From positions 1-64,000 of the forward strand of contig JALQPE010002294.1 of the NCBI GenBank assembly GCA_030407315.1: 64,000 bases of DNA, read 5' to 3'. Both the position numbers and the translations under genes were made by a program. Below the pieces are notes generated by a model, which was given only the letters and a program-made list of their open reading frames with translations, ran no database searches and was not told the DNA's origin. Origin of the DNA: Asparagopsis taxiformis (Eukaryota > Rhodophyta > Florideophyceae > Bonnemaisoniales > Bonnemaisoniaceae). Position 1 is the first letter of the stretch, and each line of letters starts with the position of its first letter. Shown one piece after another: positions 3,072 through 23,515 of this stretch.

Positions 3072-3659
3072 CGTCTGTGTTCTCGGAAATGGACGCGGAC
3101 GTCCACAACCTCTAGTACACCTAGTATTACTAGGCGGACGTCCATGTCTCCAGTATTTTTGGATGTCCGCCTAGAACCGGACGTCCATGCGGTCTAGTAC
3201 GTCTAGTAACTAGGGCGACATTCATTGTTTCTAGTACCACGGATGTCCCCCTCGGGATGGACTTCCGCCATGTCTATGTCCACCTAGGACGGGCGCCGGT
3301 TCAGAAATTAAAAAATTTCGACCCCAGAAATTTCTGCCGCCGTGCTCGACATGGATGTCCGCATCCATCACGGCGACCACTCTATTTTTCCTTGTCGGTC
3401 GACTCCAATTTCGTCTTTAATTTTTTCATCCTCTCGCTCACACACCCCTTCCAGTTGGTGCTCACCTCCCCCGTACTGTACCTCAAACACCCCCAATACC
3501 ACTCTAGCACGCATTTTCAGCTACCTATCCCCGCTTCCACGGTGCACACCTCCATTCCATACCTACTTTTCTGCTCTACCGTACAGATTTCGTATAACCA
3601 GTCCTCATACTACCTCAGAATAGGGCAAAAAACACCCCCTATCTCCTCGACCATGCTCT
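3072..3659 (-). repeat. Right arm of the long inverted repeat
   Basis: Reverse complement of 1-595. The arm may continue beyond 3659, because its partner runs off the window at position 1. The inner tip (TGTGTTCTCGGAAATGGACG) also occurs, diverged, at 23751-23797, so this is a multi-copy family. Confidence 0.85.
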
Positions 3660-4680
3660 CCCCCATCACCTTTGAAACGTATTGTTCTTCAATACCCTCT
3701 CTCCTCTACCTTCAACCCCTCTCCTTCGCCCTCTCCACAAACTTCCCCTGCAGCTTACTCTTCCAAAACCTCTCACTCCCCATCCCGTACCCGACCTGCT
3801 CCACCCCTCCCTCCCTCAGCTGCTCCATGCCCCCACGCCATCCGCATCTTCGATACCGTATACACCACCACCACCGCCCACGCTCCCGCTCCCCCGCCGT
3901 CTCCCCAGAAAACCCCCCGCTCTGAAACACATATCAACCCCCCACTTCGCACCCTTCCTCCCACTCCCCTCCCTCCCCAAATACAATAACCCCCTTCTTC
4001 TCCATCACATCCCCACTCACCACAGCCAGAACAGACGCCACCCCCTCCCCCTCTTTCTCCTCACTTTCCTAAAAACCCCTCCTCTCGGGGCCTTCAACCG
4101 CACCCTCCTACGGTCCCACCTAAACACCTCCTCCGCCCTCACTACCCCAACACCCCGCAGCGTCTCCCCAATCCCCATAATATGCTTGTCGGCACTCCTC
4201 TCCGAATCACACTCCAATCTAAACCCGCACTCCGTACATTTCCACCTCCCCCTGTACCATCCCAAGATTCCATCCCCCACAGAACACATCCTCATACCAC
4301 AGAAGAATTTTCTTCCTCTCATACCTCATCCTTAAAACCTCCATCAGCTCCATGTAAATTTCGATGTAAATATTTTCTCCACTATGCAATCTCAAACATG
4401 TATGAGCCTATGCCTTTCCGCTTTGTCAACCCTGAATATTGTACTCATGTATTCATAAAATAGGGCCACCCACATCCCTATCCCGTTCTGCAAGCTTTAC
4501 AAACCACTAGACGCATACTCCACAACTATACAACAAACACTACTCGCTATTTCAGACGACGCGGTACACAAGTAGCGTAGTCTCAACCTTCCGTGACGCC
4601 TTCCCTGATGCGTACAAGTGCGAAACACGTCTAGACTACTACTACTACGATATAGTATATCAGAAGTGACTGCGGGAATT
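3660..4680. other. Pyrimidine-rich stretch without a recognisable gene
   Basis: The plus strand is strongly C/T-rich from about 3660 to 4330, which produces long proline/serine/leucine-rich frames in several registers at once. That pattern is typical of low-complexity DNA, not coding sequence. It may be the unpaired continuation of the inverted-repeat arm. From 4330 to 4680 I see nothing. Confidence 0.5.
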
Positions 4681-4684
4681 TTCG

Positions 4685-5215
4685 GCACAGGAGATGCTGG
4701 GCCACCAAATTGATTTTTCGGAAATTTTAGAATTTCTGGGCTGGCCAGCAGTGCAATCGAGCTGGACATCCACCGGACGTCCATTTCAGGTTGGTCGTGA
4801 GAGTGAGTGGGGCGGGACCATGATGGAAACAAGGACCAAGACCTGTCCCTGACGTGTTGAGCCTGAAATCGACCCATCGTTAGGCGCCATTTAGCCTTAC
4901 AGTTAGTGCTTACAGAAGCCAGTGACAACCCCACTCGGGGCGGCGGCCGGTTCCTGGGGCCGTTGTGGCCAAATTAGACACCCTGATTTGAATTAAAATT
5001 TGGGCTATTCTCAAAAACATGCACATGTGAACATGTTTTTGAGATGGGGGTGTGCCGTACGGCACAATCGACCGCCCAAATCGATGTTTTTCGCAATATT
5101 TTTGCTCCCCGAAATTGTAGAATTTCTGGGCTGGCCAGCAATGCATCTGAGCTGGACATCCACCGGACGTCCATTTCAGGTTGATCGTGTATCGTGCACG
5201 TCCACCCATTACCGG
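4685..5215 (+). repeat. Palindrome-bearing dispersed repeat, array 1
   Basis: About 1.3 units of a repeat also found at 9805-10860, 11965-12180 and (inverted) 15930-16135. Each full unit has a 12-bp stem hairpin (CTCAAAAACATG/CATGTTTTTGAG, here 5010-5043). The perfect 16-bp palindrome TGTGCCGTACGGCACA follows (5051-5066), then GGCTGGCCAGCA and CCACCGGACGTCCATTTCAGG. A spacer beginning GGGACCATGATG links adjacent units. Translated frames here are shared by all copies and are not genes. Confidence 0.85.
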
Positions 5216-5562
5216 AAGCAAGTAGGCGATGAAGCACGTACAAACCCAATTGTTCTGCTATTTCTAGCATAGACCATCGAGTCTAGAGATGTGAGTGAAT
5301 CGTCCTGGAAATCATGCTCCAACCCACGAGGGAATGGACAATCTAGTTTGAAAGCATGGAACAGAAGTACATTATAGTAGGTTCATAGATTGAAAGTGAT
5401 AAAGGAGATGATTATATTCTCGATAATTGTTTCCTAAAGTAGTTGTTGTTAAGCTATCTAGCCGTCGGAAAACTGTTCTTCCTCTTCGTCGTCACTATAA
5501 TAGTGAATAGATATCAGGTTCTCCCGGCAGAAGAGGCGTTATGGCAACCGTGGAGTGAAAGC
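5216..5562. other. 3' flank of the ParB-dioxygenase gene
   Basis: About 350 bp between the repeat array and the stop codon of the minus-strand gene. It presumably holds that gene's 3' untranslated region. I see no other feature. Confidence 0.4.
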
Positions 5563-8500
5563 TCAAGATGAATTCTTCACCCGGTGTGAGGGTTCTCTCT
5601 TGGGAGCTTCTGTCGTCTTCATCCGCATCATTCCGAGCTGCCCTGTCTTCGGCCTACGATCTTTCTTGACCGGGATGGGAACAACTGTCTTGTGGCGAAC
5701 ATTGACAGGTGCCGGTTGACTTTGCCTGGCAGACCGGCGCGGAGCATTGGCGATTACTTCTTCTTCGAATCCCAACCGCCTGATGAAACCAAACGAAACA
5801 TTGTCGGGAATCGGATACGACGCATTCCTGAAATACGTGTGATACCTCGTTGTCGTGTGTGACACAACTCTGTCGACATGCCCTGCCCCGGCATGTTGTA
5901 CATGGCCGTGACCGATGAAGACTGAACGTGGCGGAACGATTACCTTCTTCAGCTTCATCGTCTTGGCGTACATATCTAATTCCAGCGCTTTGGAAAAGAC
6001 GTACTTGTGGGACCCTGGACACACCCAGATAGGGAATGGGTCATCTCCGTTGGCAATAACAAAGTAACCCGGAAGTTGATCTTTGCGGTCGCGAGGAGGA
6101 ACAGGGAAATCATTGTGTGGGACCTGCCGAGGACACCCCTTTCCCGTTATCAAAAACCGTCCCCCAGATGCCGGCATGACAAGTTTTTCTCCCGGTAAAC
6201 CGCACTCCTCCAGCCCTATCAGCCGGACAAGGATTCCCAACCACACATCCAGCAGGGCTCGCCGCGTCACAAACTTGAACCGGTCGATATGCGTCTCATC
6301 GTTCTCGGCATAGTCAACCAGGCAGTGGCGCGTAGACGTGAAGCGAGCCCTCCCCTCATTCCGGTTCTTCTCATCTGTTTCATCGTCCCCCGTATTGACA
6401 ATGGGACTCCACAGCTGCCGGTTCCCAGGGTCCTTGTGCACCTCCTCCCCCTCCCATGTTCCCAAGAAGTACCGAAACAATTCCTGGTTAGGAATTTCTT
6501 CCATGAGACCCAAGTCAAATGGGAACTTGTCCGACGCATCGAGGTAGCTTACATCCGCGAAATTGTGCATCACCGTATACCCTCGCTCGTTGATTTCCGT
6601 TCGGCAATTGTGGAAGTACGCCATACCAGTGCCGGCCTCATACGAATCCTTCCAGCTTGTAGACATTCGCGCAACCTGGGCGAAGTCCAGCCTCGAGGGT
6701 AGAAACGTCGATGTAGGCTCACACATCGCCTTGGCAGCCATCTTCCACGCTGCGAAAAACATCGGATAGATGGTGTCGATCTCGAAAACAAGATGACGAG
6801 CCCGATGTTGTTCCGGAATATGCAGCCCCTCAAACACAGGGTCCATCGCCACTTGCTTCAAATACCTCACCTCTCTGCCCTCCTCATCGATTTCCACACT
6901 CTCCAATAACAACCTGAGCTCAATCGGGGGCAGACAGCCAACCCTCACCGATGCGATGACGTCCGCGGGACGCTGCGCCAGATGATGCCCTTCGGCTCGG
7001 TCTTTGACTTCGAAATCGTCAGGAAGAGATGGCATACGGTCGTCGAACAGGAGGTCGTGTTCAGAAGGAGAGTCACGAACGATGTAACCGTCTTCATCGA
7101 CTTCCACTCCTTCCGGAACAGTGAATGTAATTGTCACTTCGCGGACCCCCTTGCTTTCGACTTGGCCCTCGTCTGCACCCTGTTTTGTCTTCCTCGTCCG
7201 AAGCGGTATGGACAGATTCTTGGTTGGAGGGAGTCGCACCAGCACGTTGGTTATCTTGGGGGACAATCTCAACGGCAGAATCGGGGGAACGGGCGGAGTC
7301 TTCGTCAACCTCATCACCGGAAGCAGTGGCTTGTTGTTGATCGGTGGGTTTATCAACAACGGCCTGCTCTTCTTCCCGGCGGATTGTTGTACCACAACCG
7401 GCTCTTCTTCCTCGAGGCGTGTGCTCCCCGTCGAGCGAAGTCGCTGTGAACGGCGGCGGATGCCATGCGAAGCAGGCTCATGTTCGACATTCCGCTGCTT
7501 CTTGTGAGTGAGTCTCACATTGGCAGCAGAAGGGCGGCGTTTGCGTCGAGCCTTAGTCTTCTTCTTCAATGTCGGATTGAAAAACTCTTTCAAGTTCGTT
7601 TCCAAATCCTGTAAACGCGTGGTTCTCCGTCGCATTCGAACCTCACTGCTCCGGTCGTCCCCTCTATACATTGCAATGGCATTGGTGAGATGCCATTGCA
7701 ACTCCTTCGGCTGCTTAACCGACCCAATTGCCATCTCTGTGCTCAGAAATGACTTGCGCATAATACTCTTTGGGCGCCCAAACGCAGCGTACAGAGAATT
7801 TGCTATTGCAGTCACGCGACGGACGTATGTATAGAAGTCGTTCACGTCAAAGCGTCCATCCGGACGTCCACCATGAGCAGGGTTCAAGTACTCCGAAAGA
7901 CCACGCAAGACGAAGACAAAGTTTTCTTCCAGCAACTCGCGCACTATCTTGTGGTCCAGGTGCGTTATCCCAATCTCGTTGCGGCGCTCGGAATTGTTCA
8001 GCTCACGCAACACTTCGTCGAGAACAGGATGCTTCAGCGTTGCTATAGCCAAACGCGTCCACCGCCGGGCCGTGTTCGTTGAATTCATCATCCCCATGAA
8101 CTGCGCCTCGAACAATGTTCGGATGACATCAGACTCACGCAAGTCGCCAGCGTTTTCCACGTTATTTGCAACAGCAATCGTACGGATGAACTGCTGGATG
8201 GACGACAAGATTCGAACCAGGGAGCGCTCCGTCAGTTGCGTCCCAGTCGTATGGTTCGACTCTGCACTCTTGTGGATGATCTCATGAGGCTGAAGATCAC
8301 TGTCGTCCTTGCGGCGAAGGTAGTACACATCCAGAGGCTGAGTAACCCAGCGCAAGCGGTTTGCGTCCTGTGGCAGCTTGGTTCTGTGCATACGGGTGAG
8401 GCGCGTGAAGTCATCCGCAATGCTATGCATAGCATTGAGACGATGCAGTCCGTCGATCACGGTCACGTTCGCATTGGCATGGAATTTGCCATTCTGGAAC

Positions 8501-9072
8501 AGACGCGTGTCGGCGGGCAGATGCGTGTTCTGCGACCTCAGCACCGTCACAGTGATACGCGAAGAGCTCACATACCCCACAGCCAACATATTGTTGCGCA
8601 GGTCCTCCACGTGGTCTTCTTTCACATCCCGAAGGGTCACGGCCGGTTCCACTAGCTGCCTCACCAACACAGTCGCTCCTTCTCCGACGTAATCCGACGT
8701 CACAAACTTGGGCACCGTAATTTGCGTCCCCTGCTGCTCACGAATGCTTTCCGCCACCTCCGGTTCGTCGTCCACCTCGGTTACGTCCTGCGTAGTAGCT
8801 TCGGTGACGTTGGAGCGAGCAGGGTGCTTCGTGCCTCCACTGGAGGCTCTAGCAGAGCGAGCAGGGCTTGTGCCTCCACTGGAGGTCTGGCAGAGCGAGC
8901 AGGGCGCTTCGTGCCTCCCGAAACCGGGACGGAGCGTGCTGGATGCTTCGTACCCCCCGAACCAGTGATTTCGCCTGCGGACCGGTACTGGGCATCCGTC
9001 CCGAGCTGGCCTGGTTCGTCGCTGCGTTGAAGTTTGACGCTGCAGCAGGGGTACGAATGTCGCTAGGGCCAT
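5563..9072 (-). CDS. ParB-like domain protein with C-terminal Fe(II)/2-oxoglutarate dioxygenase
   Basis: A 1169-codon open frame. Residues about 125-225 match a ParB/Srx-like N domain: a stretch containing VKEDHVEDL, then the signature IDGLHRLNA at about 206-214. The middle (about 440-650) is basic and proline-rich, probably disordered and nuclear. The C-terminal third has a 2OG-Fe(II) dioxygenase pattern: HND at 986-988 (HxD), a distal His in GHGHVQHAG at about 1055-1060, and Arg in TTTRYH at 1076. Known relatives of this fold hydroxylate or demethylate nucleic acids, proteins or small molecules; the substrate here is unknown. ParB domains often accompany phage and plasmid DNA methyltransferases. 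With the divergent methyltransferase gene next door, I infer a DNA- or chromatin-demethylating role. The frame probably lacks its true N terminus, which lies in another register (8849-9460). The fold call is fairly safe; the eraser role is inference. Confidence 0.75.
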   Translation of the reverse strand: MALATFVPLLQRQTSTQRRTRPARDGCPVPVRRRNHWFGGYEASSTLRPGFGRHEAPCSLCQTSSGGTSPARSARASSGGTKHPARSNVTEATTQDVTEVDDEPEVAESIREQQGTQITVPKFVTSDYVGEGATVLVRQLVEPAVTLRDVKEDHVEDLRNNMLAVGYVSSSRITVTVLRSQNTHLPADTRLFQNGKFHANANVTVIDGLHRLNAMHSIADDFTRLTRMHRTKLPQDANRLRWVTQPLDVYYLRRKDDSDLQPHEIIHKSAESNHTTGTQLTERSLVRILSSIQQFIRTIAVANNVENAGDLRESDVIRTLFEAQFMGMMNSTNTARRWTRLAIATLKHPVLDEVLRELNNSERRNEIGITHLDHKIVRELLEENFVFVLRGLSEYLNPAHGGRPDGRFDVNDFYTYVRRVTAIANSLYAAFGRPKSIMRKSFLSTEMAIGSVKQPKELQWHLTNAIAMYRGDDRSSEVRMRRRTTRLQDLETNLKEFFNPTLKKKTKARRKRRPSAANVRLTHKKQRNVEHEPASHGIRRRSQRLRSTGSTRLEEEEPVVVQQSAGKKSRPLLINPPINNKPLLPVMRLTKTPPVPPILPLRLSPKITNVLVRLPPTKNLSIPLRTRKTKQGADEGQVESKGVREVTITFTVPEGVEVDEDGYIVRDSPSEHDLLFDDRMPSLPDDFEVKDRAEGHHLAQRPADVIASVRVGCLPPIELRLLLESVEIDEEGREVRYLKQVAMDPVFEGLHIPEQHRARHLVFEIDTIYPMFFAAWKMAAKAMCEPTSTFLPSRLDFAQVARMSTSWKDSYEAGTGMAYFHNCRTEINERGYTVMHNFADVSYLDASDKFPFDLGLMEEIPNQELFRYFLGTWEGEEVHKDPGNRQLWSPIVNTGDDETDEKNRNEGRARFTSTRHCLVDYAENDETHIDRFKFVTRRALLDVWLGILVRLIGLEECGLPGEKLVMPASGGRFLITGKGCPRQVPHNDFPVPPRDRKDQLPGYFVIANGDDPFPIWVCPGSHKYVFSKALELDMYAKTMKLKKVIVPPRSVFIGHGHVQHAGAGHVDRVVSHTTTRYHTYFRNASYPIPDNVSFGFIRRLGFEEEVIANAPRRSARQSQPAPVNVRHKTVVPIPVKKDRRPKTGQLGMMRMKTTEAPKREPSHRVKNSS
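8815..8990 (-). repeat. Coding minisatellite in the ParB-dioxygenase gene
   Basis: Three to four imperfect units of about 40-50 bp, each encoding a version of SGGTKHPARS when read in the appropriate frame. Small length differences between units move the motif from one frame to another. This explains why the N-terminal and main frames do not line up. Confidence 0.7.
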
Positions 9073-9460
9073 CCTCCGCAGCGGGGCGCATCATCCGAGT
9101 ATCCCAAGGGTAAAACGCCGCGGCGTATGCTCCACCCATCGTCTCCGGCGGTCCCTCGGCGCCATCAAACATGTACGGGAACGGGAGGTCCTTGAACTTG
9201 TCCTTAGTCGCAATGTTGCGCACGACGATATAGTCCGCCTCGTCGGTTTCCGGCAGCTTGTGGTTGTGCAGCGTGCGCGGAAGGCCAACATCGCCACCAG
9301 CAGTGCTCACCGAAGCCGTCCCAATATGCACAGCCGCACCGTCCACGTCCGCAAACAAATTGACATCGACGCCGCGCTTGAGTCCGCGCGACTCCGCTGA
9401 CGCGCTCACTTGATCGCCGCAAACCGTTGAAAACAAACTGCTGAAATGCGTATCCGCCAT
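8849..9460 (-). CDS. N-terminal part of the ParB-dioxygenase gene, in another frame
   Basis: An open frame that reads into the start of the 5563-9072 gene in a different register. I place the start at 9460 (MADTHF), where the context AACAACCATGG is a good eukaryotic initiation site. An upstream ATG at 9643 is possible but has a poorer context. The protein (about 200 residues to the overlap) has no domain I recognise. It overlaps the coding minisatellite at 8815-8990, where repeat units differ in length by one or two bases. A frame change inside that tract, from real indels, assembly error or a tiny intron, would join the two parts. Whether the living gene is intact cannot be decided here. Confidence 0.55.
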   Translation of the reverse strand: MADTHFSSLFSTVCGDQVSASAESRGLKRGVDVNLFADVDGAAVHIGTASVSTAGGDVGLPRTLHNHKLPETDEADYIVVRNIATKDKFKDLPFPYMFDGAEGPPETMGGAYAAAFYPWDTRMMRPAAEDGPSDIRTPAAASNFNAATNQASSGRMPSTGPQAKSLVRGVRSIQHAPSRFREARSALLALPDLQWRHKPCSLC

Positions 9461-9804
9461 GGTTGTTGAGTTGGAAAGGAAAAGAGATGGTTGACGTTGA
9501 CGTATTCGAGTGATGTGGATGGTAGGTTTCACGTTAAGTTGAAGAATGGTCGTGAACGCCAATCGCTGGAAATAATAACACAATACAACCGAAATTTTGT
9601 TAGGTACACACCTATCGTGACCGCTGGAATGCAAGACAGGCAATCGAGATGTGAGTGTCCGTTCGGAACGGGCCCGAGTCGGGCTCTCGAAACCTGACGA
9701 GGTGGCGTGAAGCAGGCAGTGTCCTTGATGTGTAATGTGTTAAAATTACAGCTGTCAAGCTAGGCGGCTTTTGGGGCGGGCTGCGAGCACCCCTTTATCC
9801 GGGG

Positions 9805-10860
9805 AACACCCTGATTTGAGTTAAAATTGGGCTATTCTCAAAAACATGCACATGTGAACATGTTTTTGAGATGGGGGTGTGCCGTACGGCACAATCGACC
9901 CGCCCAAATCGTTGATTTTTGCAAGATTTTTTGTGCCCGAAATTTTAGAATTTCTGGGCTGGCCAGCAGTGCATCGAGCTGGACATCCACCGGACGTCCA
10001 TTTCAGGTTGGTCGTGTGCTGCCTACATCCACGCATTGCAGCAACTAAGCAGGCGGGTTCACTACTAATATAAAGTGCACGGAATATGAGTAACGTGATG
10101 GGTGAGTAGTGTTTGTGTTGAGGGAGTAAGGCGGGACCATGATGAAACACGGAAGAAGATTTCTCCCTAGCATAACTTAGGCTTGAAGCCTGGAATCGAC
10201 CCATCTTTCGGCGCCATTTAGCTTCACAGTTAGTGCTTACAGAAGCAGTGATGACCCGCTCGGGGCGGCGGCCGGTTCCTGGGGCCGTTGTGGCCAAATT
10301 AGACACCCTGATTTGAATTAAAATTTGGGCTATTCTCAAAAACATGCACATGAACATGTTTTTGAGATGGGGGTGTGCCGTACGGCACAATCGACCCGCC
10401 CAAATCGTTGATTTTTTACAATTTTTTTGTGCCCGAAATTTTAGAATTTCTGGGCTGGCCAGCAGTGCAATCGAGCTGGACATCCACCGGACGTCCATTT
10501 CAGGTTGGTCGTGAGAGAGTGCGGGACCATGATGGAACAAGGACCAAGACCTGTCCCTGGTGTATTGAGCCTGAATTGACCCTTCGTCAGACGCCATTTA
10601 GCCTTACAGTTAGTGCTTACAGAAGCCAGTGACAACCCCACTCGGGGCGGCGGCCGGTGCCTGGGGCCGTTGTGGCCAAATTAGACACCCTGATTTGAAT
10701 TAAAATTTGGGCTATTCTCAAAAACATGCACATGTGAACATGTTTTTGAGATGGGGGTGTGCCGTACGGCACAATCGACCGCCTGAAATCAAGGTTTTTT
10801 ACAATATTTTGCTGCCCGAAATTCTACAATTTCTGGGCTGGCCAGTAATGCATTAGCTAT
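9805..10860 (+). repeat. Palindrome-bearing dispersed repeat, array 2
   Basis: Nearly three tandem units of the same family as 4685-5215. Hairpins lie at 9837-9870, 10335-10366 (2 bp shorter loop) and 10717-10750. The palindrome TGTGCCGTACGGCACA is at 9878-9893, 10374-10389 and 10758-10773. The tract lies between the 5' ends of the two divergent DNA-modification genes. Confidence 0.88.
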
Positions 10861-11344
10861 CTGCTCTAAACCGATTCTAACAAGCAGAAAGAATCCTCTC
10901 CTTCATGACGATGCTCTCGAATTGAGTGCAATGCAACGGACTCCCTCCAAGAGAACGACAAAGCATCGTCTTTTCCAAGGCATTTCCGTACGAAAAATAA
11001 TCGAAAAACATATTTGACTTTAACCTAACAGCTATCGCGAGCACCGTACTCAGCTATATTCCTCTGTAATTTCCTTCCTCCAACCAATCAATAGCCGCTT
11101 GGTCACAGGCTTAAAAGCCTTCCACTATCTGTCCTATCCATCGAAGACCCTCGGAGGGTTCGATCCAGGCCTTGATCACCCATGAGGGGTGTGCAACCCG
11201 AGAAATTGAAAATGGAACATATTGCGACAGGGACGAGAGATATCATTCAATGAAAGAGAAGTTCTCTTTCGTTTACTTTTTCTAACAAGATTCTAAACGT
11301 CTACAAACCCTATGTCGTCCGTCCGTTTTCATCCGGAGAGATGT
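10861..11344. other. Intergenic, no feature recognised
   Basis: Mixed-composition sequence between repeat families. A GGTTCGATCC box near 11157 resembles a tRNA B box, but no cloverleaf can be built around it. Nothing else is supported. Confidence 0.3.
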
Positions 11345-11700
11345 GGATGTGAGGTAAGACGCAGTGGTGATGTTGTGTTGATTCCCACAGACGGAGGTGG
11401 AGGAGGTGGCTACGGAGGAAGCCTGGAGAACTTCTCCGGTACTGACATCTCACATGTTGAACATGTGAGATGTCAGTACCCATGGATGAGAAGAAAAACA
11501 TGTTCAGGTCCGGTTCGGATATTGTTGCCATTAACGGAGGTGGAGGAGGCTATGGTGGAAGCCTGGAGAACATGTGAGATGTCAGTACCCATGGATCACA
11601 AGAAGAACATGTTGAGGTGCGGTTCGGATATTCTTCCATTAACGGAGGTGGAGGAGGCTATGGTGGAAGCCTGGAGAAGAATAGAATAGTCCTATACCCA
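11345..11700 (+). repeat. Tandem repeat of about 115 bp with a perfect hairpin
   Basis: Three imperfect units, each carrying GGAGGTGGAGGAGG, GGAAGCCTGGAGAA and CCCATGGAT. At 11439-11479 lies a perfect 19-bp inverted repeat (GTACTGACATCTCACATGT) with a 3-base loop. A second short palindrome, GGAGAACTTCTCC, is just before it. The 125-codon frame across the tract is a product of the repeat and not a convincing gene. Confidence 0.75.
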
Positions 11701-11964
11701 TGGATCACAAGAAGACGTTGTTGGGCTCCTTTTCGAAGCCCATTCGTCTCTTGAATAAATTTAGCACCCAAATCATATACGATTGCCGAGTTGACACCCC
11801 GTATGTCTCGTTGGTAGAAATAGCAGGGGTTCCACCACTCAGCTGGCGGGAAGTAGTTACTGATTATATGAGATATGGCTTAGCTCCCGCCAAAACCGAT
11901 AGCTCTGGGCTCAGGTTCTCCAAATGTGGTTATACGAATGTGTTCTGACAATGCTAGAAGACGA

Positions 11965-12180
11965 ATATCTGCATCCTGATTTGAATTAAAATTTGGGCTA
12001 TTCTCAAAAACATGCACATGTGAACATGTTTTTGAGATGGGGGTGTGCCGTACGGCACAATCGACCGCCGCCGAAATCGATGTTTTTTGCAATATTTTTT
12101 TCCCGAAATTGTAGAATTTCTGGTCTGGCCAGCAATGCATCTGAGCTGGACATCCCCATGTCCAGTGGCCGTCCGGATGT
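11965..12180 (+). repeat. Palindrome-bearing dispersed repeat, single copy upstream of the methyltransferase
   Basis: One unit: hairpin at 12003-12036, palindrome TGTGCCGTACGGCACA at 12044-12059, then the conserved GGCCAGCAATGCATCTGAGC segment. It lies about 330 bp upstream of the methyltransferase-SET start codon and has an inverted partner at 15930-16135 downstream of that gene. Confidence 0.85.
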
Positions 12181-12505
12181 CGCTCACCTGGTAAGCGTGA
12201 TGCACCTGTGACAACCTATGTGACTGCAGTCACAGCCGCCATGGCGGCCGTGCAGTACAACACTCAAAGACAGGGAATCACAATCTTTTTAAAATTTTTC
12301 TCTACCACGTATCCGTCACAACTTATTACCTACACCGGTTACGGGTTTCAAGACCTTTCCAGTGCTGTGTACCCGTATACTCTGTTCCGTTCGATATCAA
12401 CCAGTGTTCCTCACGAAAGAGTGCAAACGTCACGAGATACGTCGTCAAATTTGACTGTCTCGCCGAGCGGTCGCCATCCTGTACCGAATTTCCACTCATT
12501 CCATT

Positions 12506-15500
12506 ATGACGAATAAGCGCAGGCGCAACAGCAATCCGATCGTTGACGACGCAACCGTGCCAATTCTGCGCGAACCCGCTAGCCCTTGGGAGGATTCTAG
12601 TGACATGGGTACACGTCGAAACGTAGGTCGCGCCGCCCGCGAAACTACTCTCGCTGGCAAAGACTTCCTCCGCCTCTTGCTGGATTTATTCGCCCACTCA
12701 AGTTTCGCAGACTTGACGGACAAGCCGGGAGGTTTCACATACGCGGACCTTGGCGCTTGGGTTGCGCAGGGCACGGAAGAACAATTTCTGGCGCTGCAAG
12801 GTCGACTCAGCATGGCCTTCAGCGGTCGTTCGAAGAATGCTGGAGTCGAGGCGGATGTTGCCGAAATCGTCATGGCAGAGATGAACGTTGAGCGAGCCAA
12901 GCAGATTGTTCGTCTGGCATTACCCATTGCCGAGTTTTCAAGACAGGATGAGCGTATCGGGCAATGGGTTGAGCACTGCATCCTTTCTGGGATCGTGCCG
13001 CAGACCTTCCTTATTGGATGTAACATGCTTCCTTCGCCACTACAGGCGCCGCAGCGCGGGGAACCAAGCGCCTTCGTTCTTGCTCCACCGGAAACGTTCG
13101 AGGTATTGATGTATTTCCAAGCGTTGTCTATCATCCGAAATCACAACAAGAACCTGCCGCGTCGCCGAATAGGCGACGCGGCCGAAGAGGGGAACGAAGC
13201 CGCACGCGTCCCAGCCCATCGGAAAAGCACTAATCGAGCTTGTTACGTGGTTCAAGTTTTATACCATGCTTGGACCGATGTGGCCTTCGCCGCAAAGTTT
13301 TCCAGCTTCGAAGAGTTGATGGCGCCGTACATCATTTTCGACAGCAGTGAGCATTGGTTTGACGTGCTCGATGAAGGTCTATTCGCACCGATGGAGCAGA
13401 AGCTAGATCTCTACCACGACAAAGCTCCCCTATCTCATCCTGATGGATATGGTGGAAAAGTAGAGACAAGAACCAGTGCGCAGCACAGTGCATTTAGGGA
13501 CCTTGTGAGGAAGTTCTTCGACCGGTTGCAGTTTCTTATCGTCAACCCGGACCTGTACACCTGGCCGGAGTCCGACCGCTGGGGGGCGCTGGAAATATAC
13601 TTGTCAAGCGGAAATCCGGACAAGCTGCCAGCGTACTTTGACACCCTCGACGAAGACGTTATGGCTGTCCTCCGCCCGGCACCACAAGCCGCGGACGCAG
13701 AAAAGGTCCCCAAGCCGGTTGATGACACTCCCACTCGTCGCAACACAGGAGGGAGAGGTTTGGTTCCGTCGACAAGACACACAACCAGGCTTCAACTTGG
13801 ACCTGGGAGGACCAGTCTTACTGCCCAAGGGCCGTCTCCCCCGTCACCGTCACCCCATGCGACAGAAGAGCAGGAAAGTGAAGGGCAGGCTCTCGCAAAG
13901 GACTTTCTTTCGAAAATGAGTCAGTATTGCCGGGTGTACGACGTCCCTTTCGAAGATTTGGTCAGTGCCGACGAGAGCCGAGAACACGTGCCCATCACGG
14001 GCAACGTTCAGCTCATTCTGACTGATCCGCCCTACAATGTTCGTCGTAAGAGGAACGATTCCAACTCTTCGTACGACAGGCTAACTGCAGAAGATATGCA
14101 GGCTAGCATCGAAGTGTTTGACGAGCTGTTGCGCCCCGGTGGCCACGGCATCGTGTTCTGCTCCGTTTTGCAGTTCTACGAATGGTTCCATTACTTGGAA
14201 ACGTACAAAGGACCGCAGTCAGAAGGCCCAACCGATGCTGCTGCCAGTGATGACGGGTCGGATGAAGAAGAGGTTACGTCCATGAATTCGGACTCCGAAG
14301 CATCGCAGCACAGTGGCGAAGAAAGTGCGGATGAGGAGGAGGACGAGGACGAGGAGGAGGACGTCGTTCGGAATTCAGTTTTCTTCGTTGACGAGGTACC
14401 TCTGTTGTTTGTCCGACTACCTGGGCACCTCTATCAAATGCCGGGGCGGAAGAGGTACCAACGCATGAACATGGCAGAGGTCGCTATCCACTTCTGGAAG
14501 CGAGGTGTTCCGTTCAAGACTGGAAGCGAGATGGTGGCCTATAGGAACCACGGATACATGGACGGCACGTACCCGGCGTGGTGCAACGTCACCATCAATA
14601 TGCCCGCCATCGATTCGAATGAGATGGTGTGGCGAACAAGGAGCACAACCGGTGCTACGGTCAGAGTTCGTGCAGAGCAGAAGAGCGTCGCTCTCATGAT
14701 GGAGTTGATCAGCCAGCATTCACAGCCTGGTGATATTGTTGTCGATCCATTCTCTGGCACTTTCGCAACGGGAAAAGCAGCTATGAGCTTGCCTGAGCAC
14801 CGTGTTTTCGTCGGCAGTGACATGGACAAATTGTGTGTGGCACGATCGCTTCCAAAGCTGTGTGCAGTCATGTCACGTGTAATTCTTTCAAACAACACTG
14901 ACATGAGGGTCACGACAGAAGCGAAACAGAGTGCTGAGAAGTTCTTGGCGTCCCCCTCTGTCACGATGCGTACGCAGAGGGAACGCAGGATCATCGAACC
15001 CCCACCTGGCCTTCCCCTGTACCAGAGGTTCCCGAAATATATTCGGCAGTACCTCTGGCAGCTGTGCCCAGAGTCGATTGCGTCGCACGAGCACATGGAA
15101 AAACCGGTACATTATTGGCCACCTTCCCTGCGCCGCTGGTTGCAAACTGAAAACCCTCGCGTGATGCGGGCACACGATTGTGTTGCGAAAAAATTGAGCG
15201 TTCGACCATCGCTGATTAAGCATCCAAATGCAGGAAGAGGGCTCTTCGCTGAACAGACATTTAATGTTGGCGACGAAGTATGTGCATACTACGGAACTGT
15301 TGTGTACTCTGATATGAGCAAGGAGTCGATGAGGTTCGCGTACGGAGAGGGTCACATGGCGATAACGAAGGAAACATTCTTGATGTATGCCATCAAGCTG
15401 TATGCAACAGCGGAGGACGACGAAAACATCGAGCATCCAATTTGGATTGTTCCGGCTCCGTTCTGTTCGGCGCAGTTCATCAACGACCCGCGGTATTTGC

Positions 15501-15706
15501 GAGGTGAGGACACTCCGGCGGAAGACACCAGGCGGATGGCCAACGTCGAGTTTGTCGAGAACTACAGCAGCGGTTCGACGGGGAAGAAGCTCAAGGCGAA
15601 GGACCTAGAAAATCCGAAGATCATTGTAGTACGTGCAATCCGCGATATCCGTCCGGGGCAGGAGCTCTACGTTCATTATGGGACAGCGTTTAGAGCATGG
15701 AATTAG
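12506..15706 (+). CDS. DNA methyltransferase (beta class, N6-adenine type) fused to a SET domain
   Basis: A 1066-codon uninterrupted frame. Residues 1-450 are unrecognised. A methyltransferase of the bacterial N6/N4 type follows. Motif IV is DPPYNV at 507-512; motif I, VVDPFSGTFATGK, has its Asp at 747. Motif IV before motif I is the beta-class order; DPPY rather than SPPY favours N6-adenine over N4-cytosine. An acidic insert of runs of D/E sits at about 585-625. Residues about 905-1060 are a SET domain: GRGLFA at 910, FIND with Asn at 993 in place of the usual FINH, and a final GQELYVHYG. The product would methylate DNA and possibly a histone or other lysine. It is divergent from the ParB-dioxygenase gene. 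The methyltransferase half looks bacterial or phage in origin, suggesting transfer followed by fusion to a eukaryotic SET domain. Catalytic motifs of the first domain are intact; SET activity is less sure because of the FINH change. Confidence 0.85.
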   Translation: MTNKRRRNSNPIVDDATVPILREPASPWEDSSDMGTRRNVGRAARETTLAGKDFLRLLLDLFAHSSFADLTDKPGGFTYADLGAWVAQGTEEQFLALQGRLSMAFSGRSKNAGVEADVAEIVMAEMNVERAKQIVRLALPIAEFSRQDERIGQWVEHCILSGIVPQTFLIGCNMLPSPLQAPQRGEPSAFVLAPPETFEVLMYFQALSIIRNHNKNLPRRRIGDAAEEGNEAARVPAHRKSTNRACYVVQVLYHAWTDVAFAAKFSSFEELMAPYIIFDSSEHWFDVLDEGLFAPMEQKLDLYHDKAPLSHPDGYGGKVETRTSAQHSAFRDLVRKFFDRLQFLIVNPDLYTWPESDRWGALEIYLSSGNPDKLPAYFDTLDEDVMAVLRPAPQAADAEKVPKPVDDTPTRRNTGGRGLVPSTRHTTRLQLGPGRTSLTAQGPSPPSPSPHATEEQESEGQALAKDFLSKMSQYCRVYDVPFEDLVSADESREHVPITGNVQLILTDPPYNVRRKRNDSNSSYDRLTAEDMQASIEVFDELLRPGGHGIVFCSVLQFYEWFHYLETYKGPQSEGPTDAAASDDGSDEEEVTSMNSDSEASQHSGEESADEEEDEDEEEDVVRNSVFFVDEVPLLFVRLPGHLYQMPGRKRYQRMNMAEVAIHFWKRGVPFKTGSEMVAYRNHGYMDGTYPAWCNVTINMPAIDSNEMVWRTRSTTGATVRVRAEQKSVALMMELISQHSQPGDIVVDPFSGTFATGKAAMSLPEHRVFVGSDMDKLCVARSLPKLCAVMSRVILSNNTDMRVTTEAKQSAEKFLASPSVTMRTQRERRIIEPPPGLPLYQRFPKYIRQYLWQLCPESIASHEHMEKPVHYWPPSLRRWLQTENPRVMRAHDCVAKKLSVRPSLIKHPNAGRGLFAEQTFNVGDEVCAYYGTVVYSDMSKESMRFAYGEGHMAITKETFLMYAIKLYATAEDDENIEHPIWIVPAPFCSAQFINDPRYLRGEDTPAEDTRRMANVEFVENYSSGSTGKKLKAKDLENPKIIVVRAIRDIRPGQELYVHYGTAFRAWN

Positions 15707-15737
15707 GGTCACGAAAGATGTTTTCATTTCGACTACA

Positions 15738-15743
15738 AATAAA
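15738..15743 (+). terminator. Possible polyadenylation signal of the methyltransferase-SET gene
   Basis: AATAAA lies 32 bases after the stop codon. Position and sequence fit a eukaryotic poly(A) signal. The hexamer is common by chance. Confidence 0.4.
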
Positions 15744-15929
15744 GCTACGTTCCAGAGTTGAAGTATATCATATAATGCAGCATGTCCAGCCACCATTAGT
15801 CCAGGGTGAAACCTATTGAGCAGTACTCGCCTGTCAAAAACCAATCGTTCACACTCTAGGTGCACTTCGTCCGAGCAGTGAACCTGACTGCTTGGATGCT
15901 GTTATGCGTGCAGATGCAAAATACACGAC

Positions 15930-16135
15930 CAAGTTGAAATGGACGCCCGGTGGATGTCCAGCTCAGTTGCATTGCTGTCCAGCCCAGAAATTCTACAATT
16001 CAGGGCAGAAAAAAATATTGCAAAAAACATCGATTTCAGCGGGTCGATTGTGCCGTACGGCACACCCCCATCTCAAAAACATGTTCACATGTGCATGTTT
16101 TTGAGAATAGCCCAAATTTTAATTCAAATCAGGAC
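15930..16135 (-). repeat. Palindrome-bearing dispersed repeat, inverted copy
   Basis: Same family as 11965-12180 but on the opposite strand: palindrome at 16049-16064, hairpin at 16072-16105. With the copy at 11965-12180 it brackets the methyltransferase-SET gene in inverted orientation. Confidence 0.85.
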
Positions 16136-16362
16136 GTCTTCCGGACATAGGGGTGCTCGCGGCCTAGCTCGACAGCTGTAATTGTACCTCATTAAATACT
16201 GTTGATGACTGCCTACCGTATACAATCTGGGCTGTTGGCGTATTCTCCGGTACTTGACCTGAAACGTTCATCGCAGACCGTTGTGGTTACCGACACTATA
16301 CAGCAATCTTTTTTGTATCTCGTGCAACTCAATCGTTCCATCGCTTCCGGGAAGGCTTCATT

Positions 16363-17160
16363 ATGCCGCCGCGTATTGCGAAGAAAGCTCCAAAGCCTCC
16401 GGGCCTCCAGAAAACCCGGTCAGCAGCTGCTGTATCGAGTGCCCGACAATCCCGTGCGAAGAAGCGGTCTGGGCCTACCGGCAGCATTGAACCGCGGTCC
16501 GGTAGTCGCAAGACGGACCGGCGCAGAACTGGGGATCCGCAGCGAGAAAGTGAGGAAGGAGGAACGGCGCGGAGAGAGATGGGGCTTGACCGAGGCAAGC
16601 GTGCTCGCAGGGACAGTGAACATCATGATGATGACATGATAGTGGCTCAAAACATGTTGGAATTGCGGCAGAGTGCTATGGCAAAGGTAGTTCCTCCCGG
16701 GTTGGCAGATGCGGAGGTGCTGCAGACGGAGTCCCAGCCGGGGGTTCGCGAGACACTGGAGGCTGTGACCCCCACTGCGCCAACTATGCCGAGTACATCA
16801 GCCCCAGCAGGTAATGCAGTCAGGGACCCGAGGATAGCGGCAAGGGATGTTGTTTCTGAGCAACGTTCACAGGATGCCAACTATCATCGGCGGTCAGGTG
16901 GTACTGAGGGGAGAGAGCAGCCGGAGTGCGGGCCTCGTCACAACAGACTGTCATTGGTGCCAAATATGCGCGTAACGCCCCCGCGACGTCAGGCTATTGC
17001 CGATGGAGGACATCATAATCCCGATAGCGTGCGAGATGGGGGGACGGTGAGGGCAGAGAGGTTGCATCCGCCGGAATCCATCGATTTAATGGCGAGTCGC
17101 ATCAATGCGCAGAAGAAGAAGATCGCGGAGCTGGAAAAAAAGTGTTTAGCCAGGACATAG
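16363..17160 (+). CDS. Basic N-terminal part of a coiled-coil protein (frame 1)
   Basis: A 265-codon frame rich in Arg, Lys, Pro and Ser at the start (MPPRIAKKAPKPPGLQK), so probably a nuclear, DNA- or RNA-binding tail. It ends in a helix with heptad character (INAQKKKIAELEKKC) that continues in the next frame. The stop at 17158-17160 comes six codons after the run of seven A residues at 17135-17141. Read with 17142-18647, the coiled coil is continuous. I recognise no family. Its position next to, and convergent with, a transposase suggests an accessory gene of that transposon. Confidence 0.6.
   Translation: MPPRIAKKAPKPPGLQKTRSAAAVSSARQSRAKKRSGPTGSIEPRSGSRKTDRRRTGDPQRESEEGGTARREMGLDRGKRARRDSEHHDDDMIVAQNMLELRQSAMAKVVPPGLADAEVLQTESQPGVRETLEAVTPTAPTMPSTSAPAGNAVRDPRIAARDVVSEQRSQDANYHRRSGGTEGREQPECGPRHNRLSLVPNMRVTPPRRQAIADGGHHNPDSVRDGGTVRAERLHPPESIDLMASRINAQKKKIAELEKKCLART
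17136..17142 (+). promoter_or_regulatory. Candidate -1 ribosomal frameshift site A_AAA_AAG
   Basis: The heptamer lies in the correct phase (codons GAA AAA AAG). A -1 slip moves the ribosome exactly into the 17142-18647 frame. Without a slip, translation stops at 17158. A one-base loss in the A run would look the same, so this is either programmed frameshifting or a simple mutation. I did not find an obvious strong stem directly downstream. Confidence 0.4.
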
Positions 17161-18647
17161 CAAACAAGGCGCTCACCACGGAGATAGTTGCGTTGGAGGC
17201 TAAGGTGAAGACTCTGCAGGCGGAAAATGCCAGCCTTACTGCAATTGCGAGAACAGGTAGAATCAGTGATCACGGTGGCGGTAAGTCGAAAATACAGAAA
17301 GCCATTCCTGTGAAATACCTTGGAGTTCTTAGGGCGGTTGAGGAAAACCTGACAAAGTGGTGCAAGAACGAGACTATGGAGCTGGACCCTATAGCGGAAC
17401 AAACGCAGAGACGTTGGACTGGACGTACCATCGAGGTAGAGCCGGTAGAAGGGACACTTTGGAGCGAAAACGGTGTAGGATATATTGCTACCCCTCCGGG
17501 CTATATCATCAAGAATCTGCAGTGGTATACACCTTCGTACAGGGACGAGAGTGATCTGCTGAATGACTTGGTGCGACACGTACTGCGTCAAAGTCCGTGG
17601 TGTGATGTGTTTTCCGATGAGGAGCAGCGTGTGTGCTGTCAAGAGGCTGTGGCGGGGAGCAAGGAATTGAAAGTGAAGGTGACGCAGAAACTGTCCGACG
17701 TGATGAGTGCACGGAAGCGTAATGCGAGGGACAGATTGTTCGGTTCGCTGGGGTACACGAAATTAATGTCTAGATGCACGATGCTGACGACGCGAGCTGA
17801 GATGGACGAGCGAGAGGATCAAAAGCGCGAAGCGTCTGAGAAGCTTTTGAAACGGGAAAGCAACGGTGATTTGGATATGGGGAGGTGGCGAACGGCACCG
17901 TTCTCAGAGCTGCGATACAGCAAAGGCATGGTTCCTGACAGCTTCGAAATGGAAGTGAATGGTGATGCATGGTTTAACAACCGAGTAGCTGTGAATGTGC
18001 TGGACATCTTCAGGGGTTATTCGATACGACCAGAACAAGTAATGGACATAGAGACGAGCATACTAACGCTGGCGCGCCTGGATGCTTGGCTAGTGACTAC
18101 TGTGGAGTGTTTGGATGAACCGAAGGGGAAAGGAGGTGCACGGCAGAAGGAGTTTACAAGGCGGTACAGTCAATATGTGGGGGTAGCTTTTCAGCAATTA
18201 GTTGGTATGGTGGTGTACTGCATGTCTTGTCTCCAAGGCTCGCAAGCAAGGGAAGAAACGGACGTTGTCGAGAGCGAACAGCGGACTAGTGCACAGTCAC
18301 GGCATGTGTTTGCAAGCCGTACTGTGACGAGAGAGGCTGTTGAAGTGTGGCAAAGCGGAGAGGGGTCTGGAATTGTTCATGTCGTTGATGATGTAAACCG
18401 CTGCTCATCACTTGTTCTAGTGTCCGAGGATTGGATTCAATCGCATATTACGTCAAACCTCGGTGCTGTAATGGATTGTGTGATTGCGCAAGGACTAATT
18501 GGCGCAGAACTTTTCGTCGTTGACCCATATGCTGGACACCTGAGTGCAAACCTGAATGTCGAAATCAATGCCCCACAGTATGGGGGCATGGAGCGGCGCC
18601 ATGCAGCCACTGCTGATAACGGTTTTGGCGTAATGGAGGATGGTTGA
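17142..18647 (+). CDS. Coiled-coil accessory protein, main part (frame 2)
   Basis: An open frame of 501 codons continuing the coiled coil begun in 16363-17160 (IVALEAKVKTLQAENASL at about 16-33). The rest is a mixed alpha/beta sequence with no motif I can name. It probably has no start of its own: its first codon is GTG and the preceding in-frame helix belongs to the upstream frame. The stop at 18647 is 78 bp from the end of the opposing transposase gene at 18725, so the two are convergent. An accessory protein of a Plavaka/KDZ-like transposon is a guess from context only. Confidence 0.6.
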   Translation: MFSQDIANKALTTEIVALEAKVKTLQAENASLTAIARTGRISDHGGGKSKIQKAIPVKYLGVLRAVEENLTKWCKNETMELDPIAEQTQRRWTGRTIEVEPVEGTLWSENGVGYIATPPGYIIKNLQWYTPSYRDESDLLNDLVRHVLRQSPWCDVFSDEEQRVCCQEAVAGSKELKVKVTQKLSDVMSARKRNARDRLFGSLGYTKLMSRCTMLTTRAEMDEREDQKREASEKLLKRESNGDLDMGRWRTAPFSELRYSKGMVPDSFEMEVNGDAWFNNRVAVNVLDIFRGYSIRPEQVMDIETSILTLARLDAWLVTTVECLDEPKGKGGARQKEFTRRYSQYVGVAFQQLVGMVVYCMSCLQGSQAREETDVVESEQRTSAQSRHVFASRTVTREAVEVWQSGEGSGIVHVVDDVNRCSSLVLVSEDWIQSHITSNLGAVMDCVIAQGLIGAELFVVDPYAGHLSANLNVEINAPQYGGMERRHAATADNGFGVMEDG

Positions 18648-18724
18648 AATTAGTGCAGTAAATGTGACGTTGACTAGAAGGCTTATCATGTAGTACATTA
18701 TCAATAGAGTGCTGCGATTTAGAT

Positions 18725-20833
18725 TTATTCTTCTTCATTATCATCTGTGAACTGGTAATCAGTGTTGGTGTAGAAGCGGTTGAGATAGAAACGGTGGTCC
18801 GACCAGTGCATTTGTTTCGTAAATGGCTTGACTGGAAAGTTACTTCGTACGATGTGCACGGTGCCAGATATAGTAGATGCAGGAATGAGGTCAAACCAAG
18901 GACCACCTGCACTGTGGGATGCAGTGTCATTGCTGTCAACGGATCCGTTGTCCGGGTCCCATGTGGACCACTTTAAACAAATGCACCCAAGTGATTTTTC
19001 CACAGCGGTTTTTGGGGCAAAGCAGGTCATATACTGAACGAAAGCGAGTTCTACAGGTTGAAAGAGGTTTGGAGACTGCAGGCGTACCAGTGCCAGGACG
19101 CGCCCTACCCATATGGTTCTGTAGTCATCGGTAGTTCCGGAGATGACGACAAAGGAGTACTGCGATCTCTTTGCGGGGCCGAATGATGAAGTTGCAAAGA
19201 CGCGCTGCTGCTTGTGCCTCGACACGTTTGTGGGGCGAAGCATGCCACTGTGCGGGTCAAAGTCGTCGGCATCTGGGACGTACCCTCCCATGACGTAGGC
19301 GGACTTTACCGCGGTGACGGAAATGTCCATGTCATGTATTGGAGGGCCTTCTGCCGTGGCGCGCAGTCTAGCGAGGGTGAGGAACGCTTGTGCAGCTGTG
19401 TCACCGAGTTGCTGGAATAGCGTTATGGTGCCAGACGGGAACGAGGAGTTGTGCAGAGGCAAAAGAGTGGCAGGATCGGGCTGTCCGTCGATATCTGCAA
19501 CGAGGAGGGTTGCATCGGGCAGCAGGGAGGCAAAGTCGTGCAGTGCAACGGTGAATCCGTCGCGAACGAGTACTGCACCGTCTGTGGGCGATATCATGCG
19601 TGCGTTTCCCAATGTGTTCGATGGGGTGTGACCAGTTGGAGTGGCCAAGGAGAATTCCATGTGGCGAATAGTCTCTTCCATGGCTGTGGAGCGCCTTCGA
19701 GAGGTTTTCCTATAACTCTGTTTGAACAGAAGATGCGAGTGTTCGTAGGGGCCTGCATCGATGTGTTCCACGGTGCCATATCTCTGCAAGTCACCGGGAA
19801 GATGGTCAAGAAGATGGAACTTGAAAGTTTTGAGACCTGTGGTGTGGAATGGGCCGAGGGTGGAGAGCATTGATTGTTTGAAATAGGAAATGGAGTTCTG
19901 GAGGCTTTCTAGTTCGGCGGCAGTCCAGTGCTTGATGCGACCGCGTTTCATGACCCATGCGACGAGGTCAGAGTATTGCGTGCAGATGGAAGTGAGGGGG
20001 GCTGTCTCTACTTCGTCACAGCATGTGTCAATGAATGCTGCGATGAAAGGGAACACCATGTCGACATGGTGATAGTCTTTGGCTGCGAGCATGCCGCGTA
20101 TGCCGTCCTCCGTGAAGAGGCCGTTCAAATTGGTGCCCTTCTCACCCTTGGAGAAGTCGACATGAAGACCGGTGATGTAGTAGTCGCGTTCGATAGCGGA
20201 CAGAATGCTGTTTGAGCCGGCGAGGATGGATTTTTTCACCTTCTTGAAGGTGCGAGGTGTCCCGGAATGGGAGGCAGTGGTGGTGGTGAGGTCTGGGGAG
20301 CTGAGGCGGTGGACAATGCACTGTTTGATGAGCTTTGAGATGCCGAGGTGGAGATTGTGCAGAGGCTCGAAGGAGAAAATGTTGTAGGGGTCTAGGGGAC
20401 TGTTGGTGGGTAAAAGAGCGGTCGATTCGAGGACAGAGTGTTGTTCGAGGAGGGAGAGAGCTTCGAGCGGAGCAGTTGTATGCTCCTGAGCGCTCTCTTG
20501 GCGTGCAGAGCGTGTATCATCGAGGGAGCGGGGCTGGTGTGGCGCGGTGGATTCAAGTTGAGTGGCGGGGATGTAGCAGCGGTGGCAGGGATGTGTGGTG
20601 GTAGTGCTGTTGCGAGTGCGTGACAGCTCTTTGGCCTCTGGAAAGTCGCAGCAATAATTGGCTAGGATGGGAAAGCATTGGCGGGCAGTTGCAGTGGAGT
20701 CTGTGCAGGGGAACCCGGAAGAGAACGCGGTGGATAGGGACGAAAACACTTTTTCGAGTGCTTTATGAAGAATATCAATTTTGCGAGCGCGACTAGCAGA
20801 ACTAGAGGTTGTCGGCATTTCATCACCGAACAA
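18725..20833 (-). pseudogene. Plavaka/KDZ-like DNA transposase, C-terminal part
   Basis: A 702-codon frame with landmarks of the CACTA/Plavaka/KDZ group of fungal and protist transposases: a CHRC pair after a conserved Asp/Cys-rich stretch (HPCHRCYIP), then FEPLHNLHLGISKLIKQ. Next come FHLLDHLPGDLQRYGTVEH and PYEHSHLLFKQSYRKTSRR, the usual His/Arg/Tyr-Gly block ending in the Glu region. The frame is open upstream of the first Met; the protein really begins in the 20662-21765 frame. A single -1 shift is needed to join them. I therefore treat the copy as a recently broken transposase. It would cut and rejoin transposon ends in the nucleus. Confidence 0.65.
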
Positions 20834-23070: not shown

Positions 23071-23429
23071 AAGCAGGAACGGCAGGACTGAAGGAGAGTG
23101 AAGAAGGGATTTAGGAAGATGGGGAATGAAGCTGTGAGGTGTTTCTGGTATGTGTATATTTTGGGGCATACGATAGAAGTGAGAGTGGGTTTCAAGTGGT
23201 GTAAGATTTTGCTGACCATGTTCGTGTTTGATGTCTTGATGATTTAATGGGCTGGGGTGGTGTCGAGGAAAGCGGGGATGGAATTGGGAAGGAGCGGATT
23301 TTTGTAATCTAGGTCGTGAGGGTTCTTGAAGTATGTGCGGATGGTGGTGCATGGCGTTCGGATGGTAGGGAGAACGCGATAGTGAGGGAGATGGGTGATC
23401 GACGATATGCTGACAGGTATTTTGTATTC

Positions 23430-23515
23430 TGGCTGGATACCTATTTCCTATTCTAACCGGGTATTTATTTCCTATTCTGACCAGATATGTATTCCCTATT
23501 CTAGAGAGACGTATT
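23430..23515 (+). repeat. Short tandem repeat, about 25-bp unit
   Basis: Three to four imperfect copies of a unit ending ATTTCCTATTCT / ATTCCCTATTCT. No function apparent. Confidence 0.7.

Follow-up and report, generated by a model that had tools for sequence, protein, structure and literature searches.

Transposons with epigenetic cargo are already known, including ParB and DNA methyltransferase genes in algal transposons. Sola1-1_Ec32 of Ectocarpus is a 21.5-kb DNA transposon which encodes a 1104-aa ParB-like and N4C/N6A methyltransferase protein (PMC12477816), and giant EnSpm elements with accessory genes have been described in the red alga Bostrychia moritziana (Petroll et al. 2025, doi 10.1016/j.cub.2025.04.044, as cited in PMC12477816). 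Here, we analyzed the first 64 kb (64,000 nucleotides, called the window) of the 174-kb contig JALQPE010002294.1 of the red alga Asparagopsis taxiformis (assembly GCA_030407315.1, 141.5 Mb in 3156 contigs). This window contains a giant transposon which carries a DNA methyltransferase joined to a SET domain in one chain and a second gene for a putative ParB/dioxygenase-like protein. What can be read directly from the sequence is the element with its transposase and methyltransferase-SET fusion, its high copy number and six near-identical palindrome-bearing repeats in it.

Sola1-1_Ec32 differs from this element in its Sola transposase and in having ParB and methyltransferase in a single chain, and the terms "SET domain" and "dioxygenase" have 0 occurrences in the main text of the source (PMC12477816). 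The Bostrychia elements are comparable as red algal giant EnSpm elements that carry accessory genes. Petroll et al. 2025, as represented in PMC12477816, may already cover part of the present finding or close relatives of the element. Fungal TET/JBP transposons, including Plavaka, carry an Fe(II)/2-oxoglutarate (2OG) dioxygenase as likely anti-silencing cargo (PMC12730594), a role that the putative dioxygenase described here could share. The fungal Plavaka elements differ in that their cargo is TET/JBP, with no DNA methyltransferase or SET fusion among the cargo described and "ParB" occurring 0 times in that source (PMC12730594). The Phytophthora HarbingerS and MuDR families (cited in PMC12730594) have a SET histone methyltransferase as cargo, as here, but with other transposases, and a DNA methyltransferase fusion is not mentioned for them in that account. 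The Plavaka giant repeats of Amoebidium differ in their tyrosine recombinase cargo, whose matches are confined to distant lineages, for example dinoflagellates or red algae, and "SET domain", "ParB", "dioxygenase" and "6mA" (N6-methyladenine) have 0 occurrences in the main text of that report (PMC11244446). In bdelloid rotifers, an N4C methyltransferase places a bacterial-type N4-methylcytosine mark in eukaryotic DNA (PMC8885841). Neither the methyltransferase-SET fusion nor a ParB-oxygenase as its separate partner, nor the persistence of the two together, was found in the literature, judged mostly from titles and the openings of abstracts. Apparently new here are the methyltransferase joined to SET, the putative ParB-oxygenase partner and the very successful element that carries them.

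Borders, copies and transposase of the element

The repeat unit was defined by alignment of the window to 10 other copies, in 20 stretches. Both termini were found, with flanks differing from copy to copy, and the alignment breaks at 3070-3072 in 6 of the 10 other copies, which are those with the left end reached. The left terminus reads CGTCTGTGTTcTCGGAAaTGGACGCGGACGTCCA, and the right terminus, read inward from 23798, is the same with two differences; a typical left and right terminal inverted repeat have 2 mismatches over about 34 bp. Seven copies, that of the window among them, have both ends on a single contig, and by coordinate arithmetic their unit measures 20.0 to 21.8 kb. Intact copies contain four intronless genes, for the ParB/dioxygenase-like protein, the methyltransferase-SET protein, a 761-aa coiled-coil protein and the transposase, and the window copy is frameshifted in three of the four (Table 1). 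A preliminary description of this locus had taken the first two genes for a methylation island. Since both recur together with the whole unit across the genome, a chromosomal island was ruled out, and the two genes are instead cargo of a transposon with about a thousand copies in the genome.

The genome-wide counts were made with up to 2 mismatches, and each reversed control gave 0. We found the left end (first 39 bases) at 1330 places, the methyltransferase motifs at 967 and the transposase motifs at 994. The motif counts suggest about 970 to 1,000 copies. If all copies were full length, they would amount to about 20 Mb or about 14% of the assembly, which is an upper figure because truncated copies and contig ends are counted. 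The copies are about 95 to 99.6% identical to the window over long aligned stretches, and the spread therefore looks recent. Set beside the 967 methyltransferase motifs, the 1330 left ends leave room for copies that are truncated or have lost internal parts, or for ends that stand alone.

The transposase matched PF18759 with E 2.6e-13 in the window copy and with E 1.6e-24 (87.2 bits, cut-off 26.3) in the copy on C1665, and it is one 1012- to 1013-aa open reading frame (ORF) in 5 of the 10 copies examined (C1665, C1988, C2020, C411 and C1851). The element is thus classed as a DNA transposon of the Plavaka/EnSpm-related (EnSpm/CACTA-related) kind. Its termini, CGTCTGTG..CACAGACG, differ from TGT..ACA of PlavakaA, CATCA..TGATG of PlavakaB and CA..TG of most of the wider clade, and by the definitions in PMC12730594 the element therefore belongs to neither PlavakaA nor PlavakaB. 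The 761-aa gene is a single ORF in 1 of the 10 copies examined (C26). For its product, Pfam gave weak coiled-coil matches only, all below cut-off; a Wtap match among them, a coiled coil as well, was not used.

Near the right end, a unit with about 43-bp spacing occurs once in the window and in up to at least seven tandem copies elsewhere (e.g. C599 9583-9891). Such variable right-end units resemble the subterminal repeats of EnSpm/CACTA elements. At the contig start, a second, inverted copy is truncated to its left end, which stands head to head with the main element at a distance of 2.5 kb (595-3072 between).

The genome gave 13 phycobilisome matches, 11 of them on contig C469, as befits a red alga, and a fungal host, which the Plavaka-type transposase might suggest, was rejected on these grounds. 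Two matches of equal score on C469 are 177,170 bp apart, in keeping with a circular plastid assembled with an overlap. The published draft genome of A. taxiformis L6 was produced from PacBio reads with a Canu assembly and short-read polishing, and contains 70.67% repeats (PMC12115072). Because this published Asparagopsis assembly was built from long reads, the analysis suggests that some frameshifts, including those of the window, could be unpolished read errors.

The methyltransferase-SET protein and its putative partner

The joining of a beta-class methyltransferase to SET in one chain, as the preliminary description had proposed, was borne out by both Pfam profiles. N6_N4_Mtase (PF01555) matched residues 501-775 above its curated cut-off, and SET (PF00856) matched residues 910-1059 with 29.5 bits against a cut-off of 22.4. 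Asp507 lies within DPPY and Asp747 within motif I (VVDPFSGT), with motif IV preceding motif I, which is the beta-class order. The frame is full length and without stops in all 43 scored genome copies (the best 43 of 4137 candidates).

Using residues 490-1066 as the query, we retrieved 55 proteins. One of them (P0001) is 99% identical and likely belongs to the same element, while the other 54 have 25 to 37% identity. In the alignment of the window protein with these 54 homologues (55 rows, P0001 excluded), the catalytic methyltransferase positions were kept at D507 in 53 rows, at P508 and P509 in all 55 and at D747 in 54, and the SET positions at G930 in 51, at N1013 in 52 and at Y1058 in 41. 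When the family profile was compared with PDB, it matched adenine methyltransferases best (DpnA, E 3e-16), with RsrI, MboIIA and CcrM also among the best matches, and the SET part matched chains of KMT2C/2D, KMT5A and EZH2. Chains named DNA cytosine-N4 methyltransferase, which we take to be the bdelloid rotifer enzyme, gave E 0.008. The far better matches to adenine methyltransferases favor N6-methyladenine over N4-methylcytosine as the predicted product, and the family differs from the rotifer enzyme also in its SET fusion and transposon context.

For a C5 cytosine methyltransferase (PF00145), no match was found in the genome by a search that was positive in 10 of 14 controls, all ten prokaryotes, and that a very divergent or intron-split gene could escape. 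A viral origin was rejected, as the viral contigs searched had no relative of the methyltransferase-SET or ParB-dioxygenase protein and gave three short methyltransferase-motif matches. A phage origin was likewise rejected, with two weak partial matches to the methyltransferase part only, and prokaryote genomes gave 5 short motif matches. In the published annotation of Asparagopsis, 389 genes were dropped as contaminants because their best matches were microbial (PMC12115072), and bacterial-type transposon genes such as the methyltransferase-SET gene could be among them.

The two large divergent genes named in the preliminary description both exist as ORFs, but the one at 5563-9072 on the minus strand (1169 aa) is not the intact gene. 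In intact copies, the ParB/dioxygenase-like gene is one 1318-aa ORF, with a start and stop that correspond to about 9460 and 5458. A comparison by eye shows that the window ORF departs from this reading frame in the N-terminal part, in a linker of about 63 residues and at the C terminus. A 39-bp tandem repeat at 8813-8918 lies near the N-terminal loss of frame, and the window and the intact copies differ there. Among scored copies (the best 35 of 4380 candidates), the frame is open in 34, and one has a TGA.

Two homologues of this protein, P0003 and P0004, were found. DGxHR is invariant in the three relatives (the window gene and the two homologues), and so is the arrangement of HxD, a next H at +74 to +78 and a next R at +16 or +17. 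At about 30% identity, the catalytic motifs of both cargo genes are kept. The ParB-like and HxD...H...R dioxygenase domains previously proposed thus stand as motifs, while profiles and a structure model did not confirm them (see below), and we treat both as putative, motif-level assignments. Even with E values up to 10 allowed, the protein matched no Pfam profile, Tet_JBP included, and a TET/JBP identity was dropped.

To what extent the two genes occur together elsewhere can be judged from these relatives, which come from a search that reaches only sequences sharing exact words. The dioxygenase homologue P0003 and the methyltransferase homologue P0009 come from the same source and both from contigs of 13,551 bp, and the two are very probably on one contig. 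In a tree of 54 rows (without P0058, which is below the minimum length), P0009 is the sister of the window methyltransferase-SET protein with support 99/87. Because the contigs match and P0009 is sister to the window protein, the pairing is probably old and kept in one distant relative. The contig of P0004 is 8396 bp, with no equal among the 55 longest contigs listed for methyltransferase matches; hence at least 1 of the 2 dioxygenase homologues has a methyltransferase homologue on a matching contig. For co-occurrence in other genomes, which the preliminary description proposed to check, the outcome is mixed, with one probable case.

The gene spacers of the element contain six near-identical repeats of about 200 bp, five of them in forward and one in inverted orientation. 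The core hardly varies among them and includes 13-bp arms TCTCAAAAACATG / CATGTTTTTGAGA and the palindrome GTGCCGTACGGCAC, which has 6 sites within the element and 0 elsewhere in the window. No core match outside elements was found in the window and in loci L009-L046, the match at L045:2816 being inside by position (element end L045:819). Genome-wide, a 26-mer taken from the core was counted 4907 times (control 0), or about five times per methyltransferase motif, and solo copies are possible. Because of their palindromy and their position before genes, the repeats may be guessed to be candidate binding sites of the ParB-like domain.

Possible function of the cargo and competing explanations

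The combination of genes suggests that both the DNA and the chromatin of the element are modified by its own products. We regard it as close to an even call, falling slightly short of one, that this is a giant cut-and-paste Plavaka/EnSpm-related transposon with its own epigenetic, self-marking anti-silencing module. The methyltransferase would put an amino-methyl mark on DNA, N6-methyladenine being likelier than N4-methylcytosine, and the SET domain would methylate a histone lysine on the same chromatin. The ParB-like protein would bind the palindromic spacer repeats and thereby bring its Fe(II)/2OG oxygenase domain there, where a methyl or other group would be oxidized. Jointly, these activities could keep the promoters or ends of the element permissive and self-marked, and so aid its recent spread. 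We infer the writer and eraser functions, the eraser role from motifs only.

A fuller form of this proposal appears doubtful. It holds that the element has a self-addressed two-layer system, in which one protein writes adenine and histone lysine marks and a ParB-guided oxygenase at the element's own palindromes edits or removes the mark; that the system has been passed on undivided between deeply diverged lineages; and that it let the element fill up to about one seventh of the host genome, apparently without a cytosine-5 methyltransferase. If true, the element would be a natural test of the coupling of DNA adenine and histone methylation in one eukaryotic enzyme, and of the escape of a giant transposon from silencing to about a thousand copies. 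Raw PacBio data (PRJNA809757) are stated in PMC12115072 to have been submitted, and 6mA on the element may be testable from them without bench work.

Several observations weigh against a self-marking module. Neither ParB nor 2OG dioxygenase had a supporting match in Pfam, PHROG, NCBIfam or PDB sequences, for the window protein or for its homologues, and a structure predicted from three sequences had a mean pLDDT of 37, too low to show a fold. The binding of the spacer repeats by the ParB-like domain is a guess. Precomputed labels gave PF01555 in 54 of the 55 search matches and the SET profile in only 23. In the alignment, the SET stretch is mostly missing in P0051, P0055, P0057 and P0058, and the SET motifs are degraded in several further rows, e.g. 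P0035, P0037, P0044 and P0047. P0009, which supports the old pairing, carries EPPS at the place of DPPY and lacks SET among its precomputed labels, so that the enzyme may be inactive. A dioxygenase homologue on a matching contig was found for 1 of the 54 other methyltransferase-SET family members, a count that is a lower bound. As for the transposon itself, the check for the 2- to 3-bp target-site duplication of Plavaka/EnSpm-related transposons gave 2 bp common to both flanks in only 2 of 7 copies (AA in the window and AT in C2302), and chimeric assembly is possible. In the ten copies examined above, which were not chosen for these genes, the transposase is one frame in half and the 761-aa gene in a single copy, and the 1318-aa frame is open in 2 of the 7 copies read over the whole gene (window included).

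That no profile of TET/JBP or of another 2OG family matched the protein would also fit a different substrate. The ParB-dioxygenase could be a DNA hypermodification enzyme, a protein hydroxylase or a histone demethylase and not an eraser, with the two genes being independent anti-silencing cargo; a linked dioxygenase was indeed not found for most methyltransferase-SET homologues. We consider this rather unlikely, since both genes lie on equal-sized contigs of one source in the sister lineage. Somewhat less probable still is that methylation of the ends or spacers times transposition. Dam methylation regulates some bacterial transposons, and here the transposase would cut newly replicated, hemimethylated copies, while SET and the oxygenase would tune this timing and not oppose host silencing. 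GGAYRTCC is enriched in the element, with 18 sites in 20.7 kb against 3 in the 40.2 kb that follow it; shuffling gave a mean of 1.5 and a maximum of 6. Several of these sites, however, belong to the repeated spacers and thus do not count independently, and the recognition site of the methyltransferase may differ. The variable number of subterminal repeats and the conserved methyltransferase motifs would suit such timing, whereas the fusion to SET points to chromatin.

It is very improbable that the cargo is decoration or a relic, i.e., captured genes without present function which are carried by an efficient transposase. Such a relic would explain the frameshifts in the cargo of many copies, among them those counted above for the ParB-dioxygenase and 761-aa genes, but these may be uncorrected long-read errors. 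The frames of the methyltransferase-SET and ParB-dioxygenase genes are open in all and in all but one, respectively, of the best-scored copies, and the catalytic motifs have been retained in distant homologues. Silent variants are also in excess. Among 13 copies, the methyltransferase-SET gene has 7 silent and 5 replacement variants, whereas neutrality would predict 3.26 replacement variants for each silent one (P = 0.01; P = 0.0009 once three acidic-linker variants are set aside). These 13 copies were, however, the best protein matches, a choice biased against replacement changes, which weakens the test also as support for the self-marking module.

Feature coordinates and neighboring sequence

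Table 1. Positions of the transposon and its parts in the window
Feature	Positions	Strand	Basis or remark
Whole transposon	3072..23798		20,727 bp; imperfect terminal inverted repeats of about 34 bp, CGTCTGTG...CACAGACG
Left terminal inverted repeat	3072..3105	+	Sequence ends compared among copies; genome-wide count of first 39 bases
Spacer repeat 1	4960..5210	+	Palindrome GTGCCGTACGGCAC at 5052
ParB/dioxygenase-like gene (putative)	5458..9460	-	Frameshifted; readable piece 5563-9072; ends mapped by hand
Dioxygenase-like region (putative)	5749..6816	-	H 6115-6117, D 6109-6111, H 5893-5895, R 5845-5847; coordinates by hand
ParB-like region (putative)	8224..8721	-	DGxHR at about 8440-8454; by motif only; coordinates by hand
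Spacer repeat 2	9790..10035	+	Palindrome at 9879; about 330 bp before ParB/dioxygenase gene start
Spacer repeat 3	10290..10530	+	Palindrome at 10375
Spacer repeat 4	10670..10870	+	Palindrome at 10759
Spacer repeat 5	11955..12170	+	Palindrome at 12045; about 340 bp before methyltransferase-SET start
Methyltransferase-SET gene	12506..15706	+	1066 aa (1066-1067 aa in intact copies); Pfam domains
Beta-class amino-methyltransferase domain (DPPY, motif I)	14006..14830	+	PF01555 E 3.1e-15
SET domain	15233..15682	+	PF00856 E 1e-6
Spacer repeat 6, inverted	15900..16150	-	Palindrome at 16050; about 210 bp before 761-aa gene
761-aa coiled-coil protein gene	16363..18647	+	Split here at about 17.15 kb
Plavaka-type transposase gene	18725..21765	-	Split here at about 20.7-20.8 kb; PF18759 match
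Right subterminal unit	23627..23677		Arrays of variable number, about 43-bp spacing, in other copies
Right terminal inverted repeat	23765..23798	-	Sequence ends compared among copies
Left end of second copy, inverted, cut by contig start	1..595	-	Copy alignment and terminus

A piggyBac-type transposase and pieces of long terminal repeat (LTR) retrotransposons (reverse transcriptase and integrase) were seen beside the element at 30851-32932, 38633-41707, 49232-50941 and 54653-55549. The GC skew reaches up to 0.43 over 10-kb stretches, at 17000-29000 and 46000-56000. At 33978-36782, a 934-aa single-frame ORF encodes a sterol-sensing/Patched-like membrane protein, perhaps a host gene.

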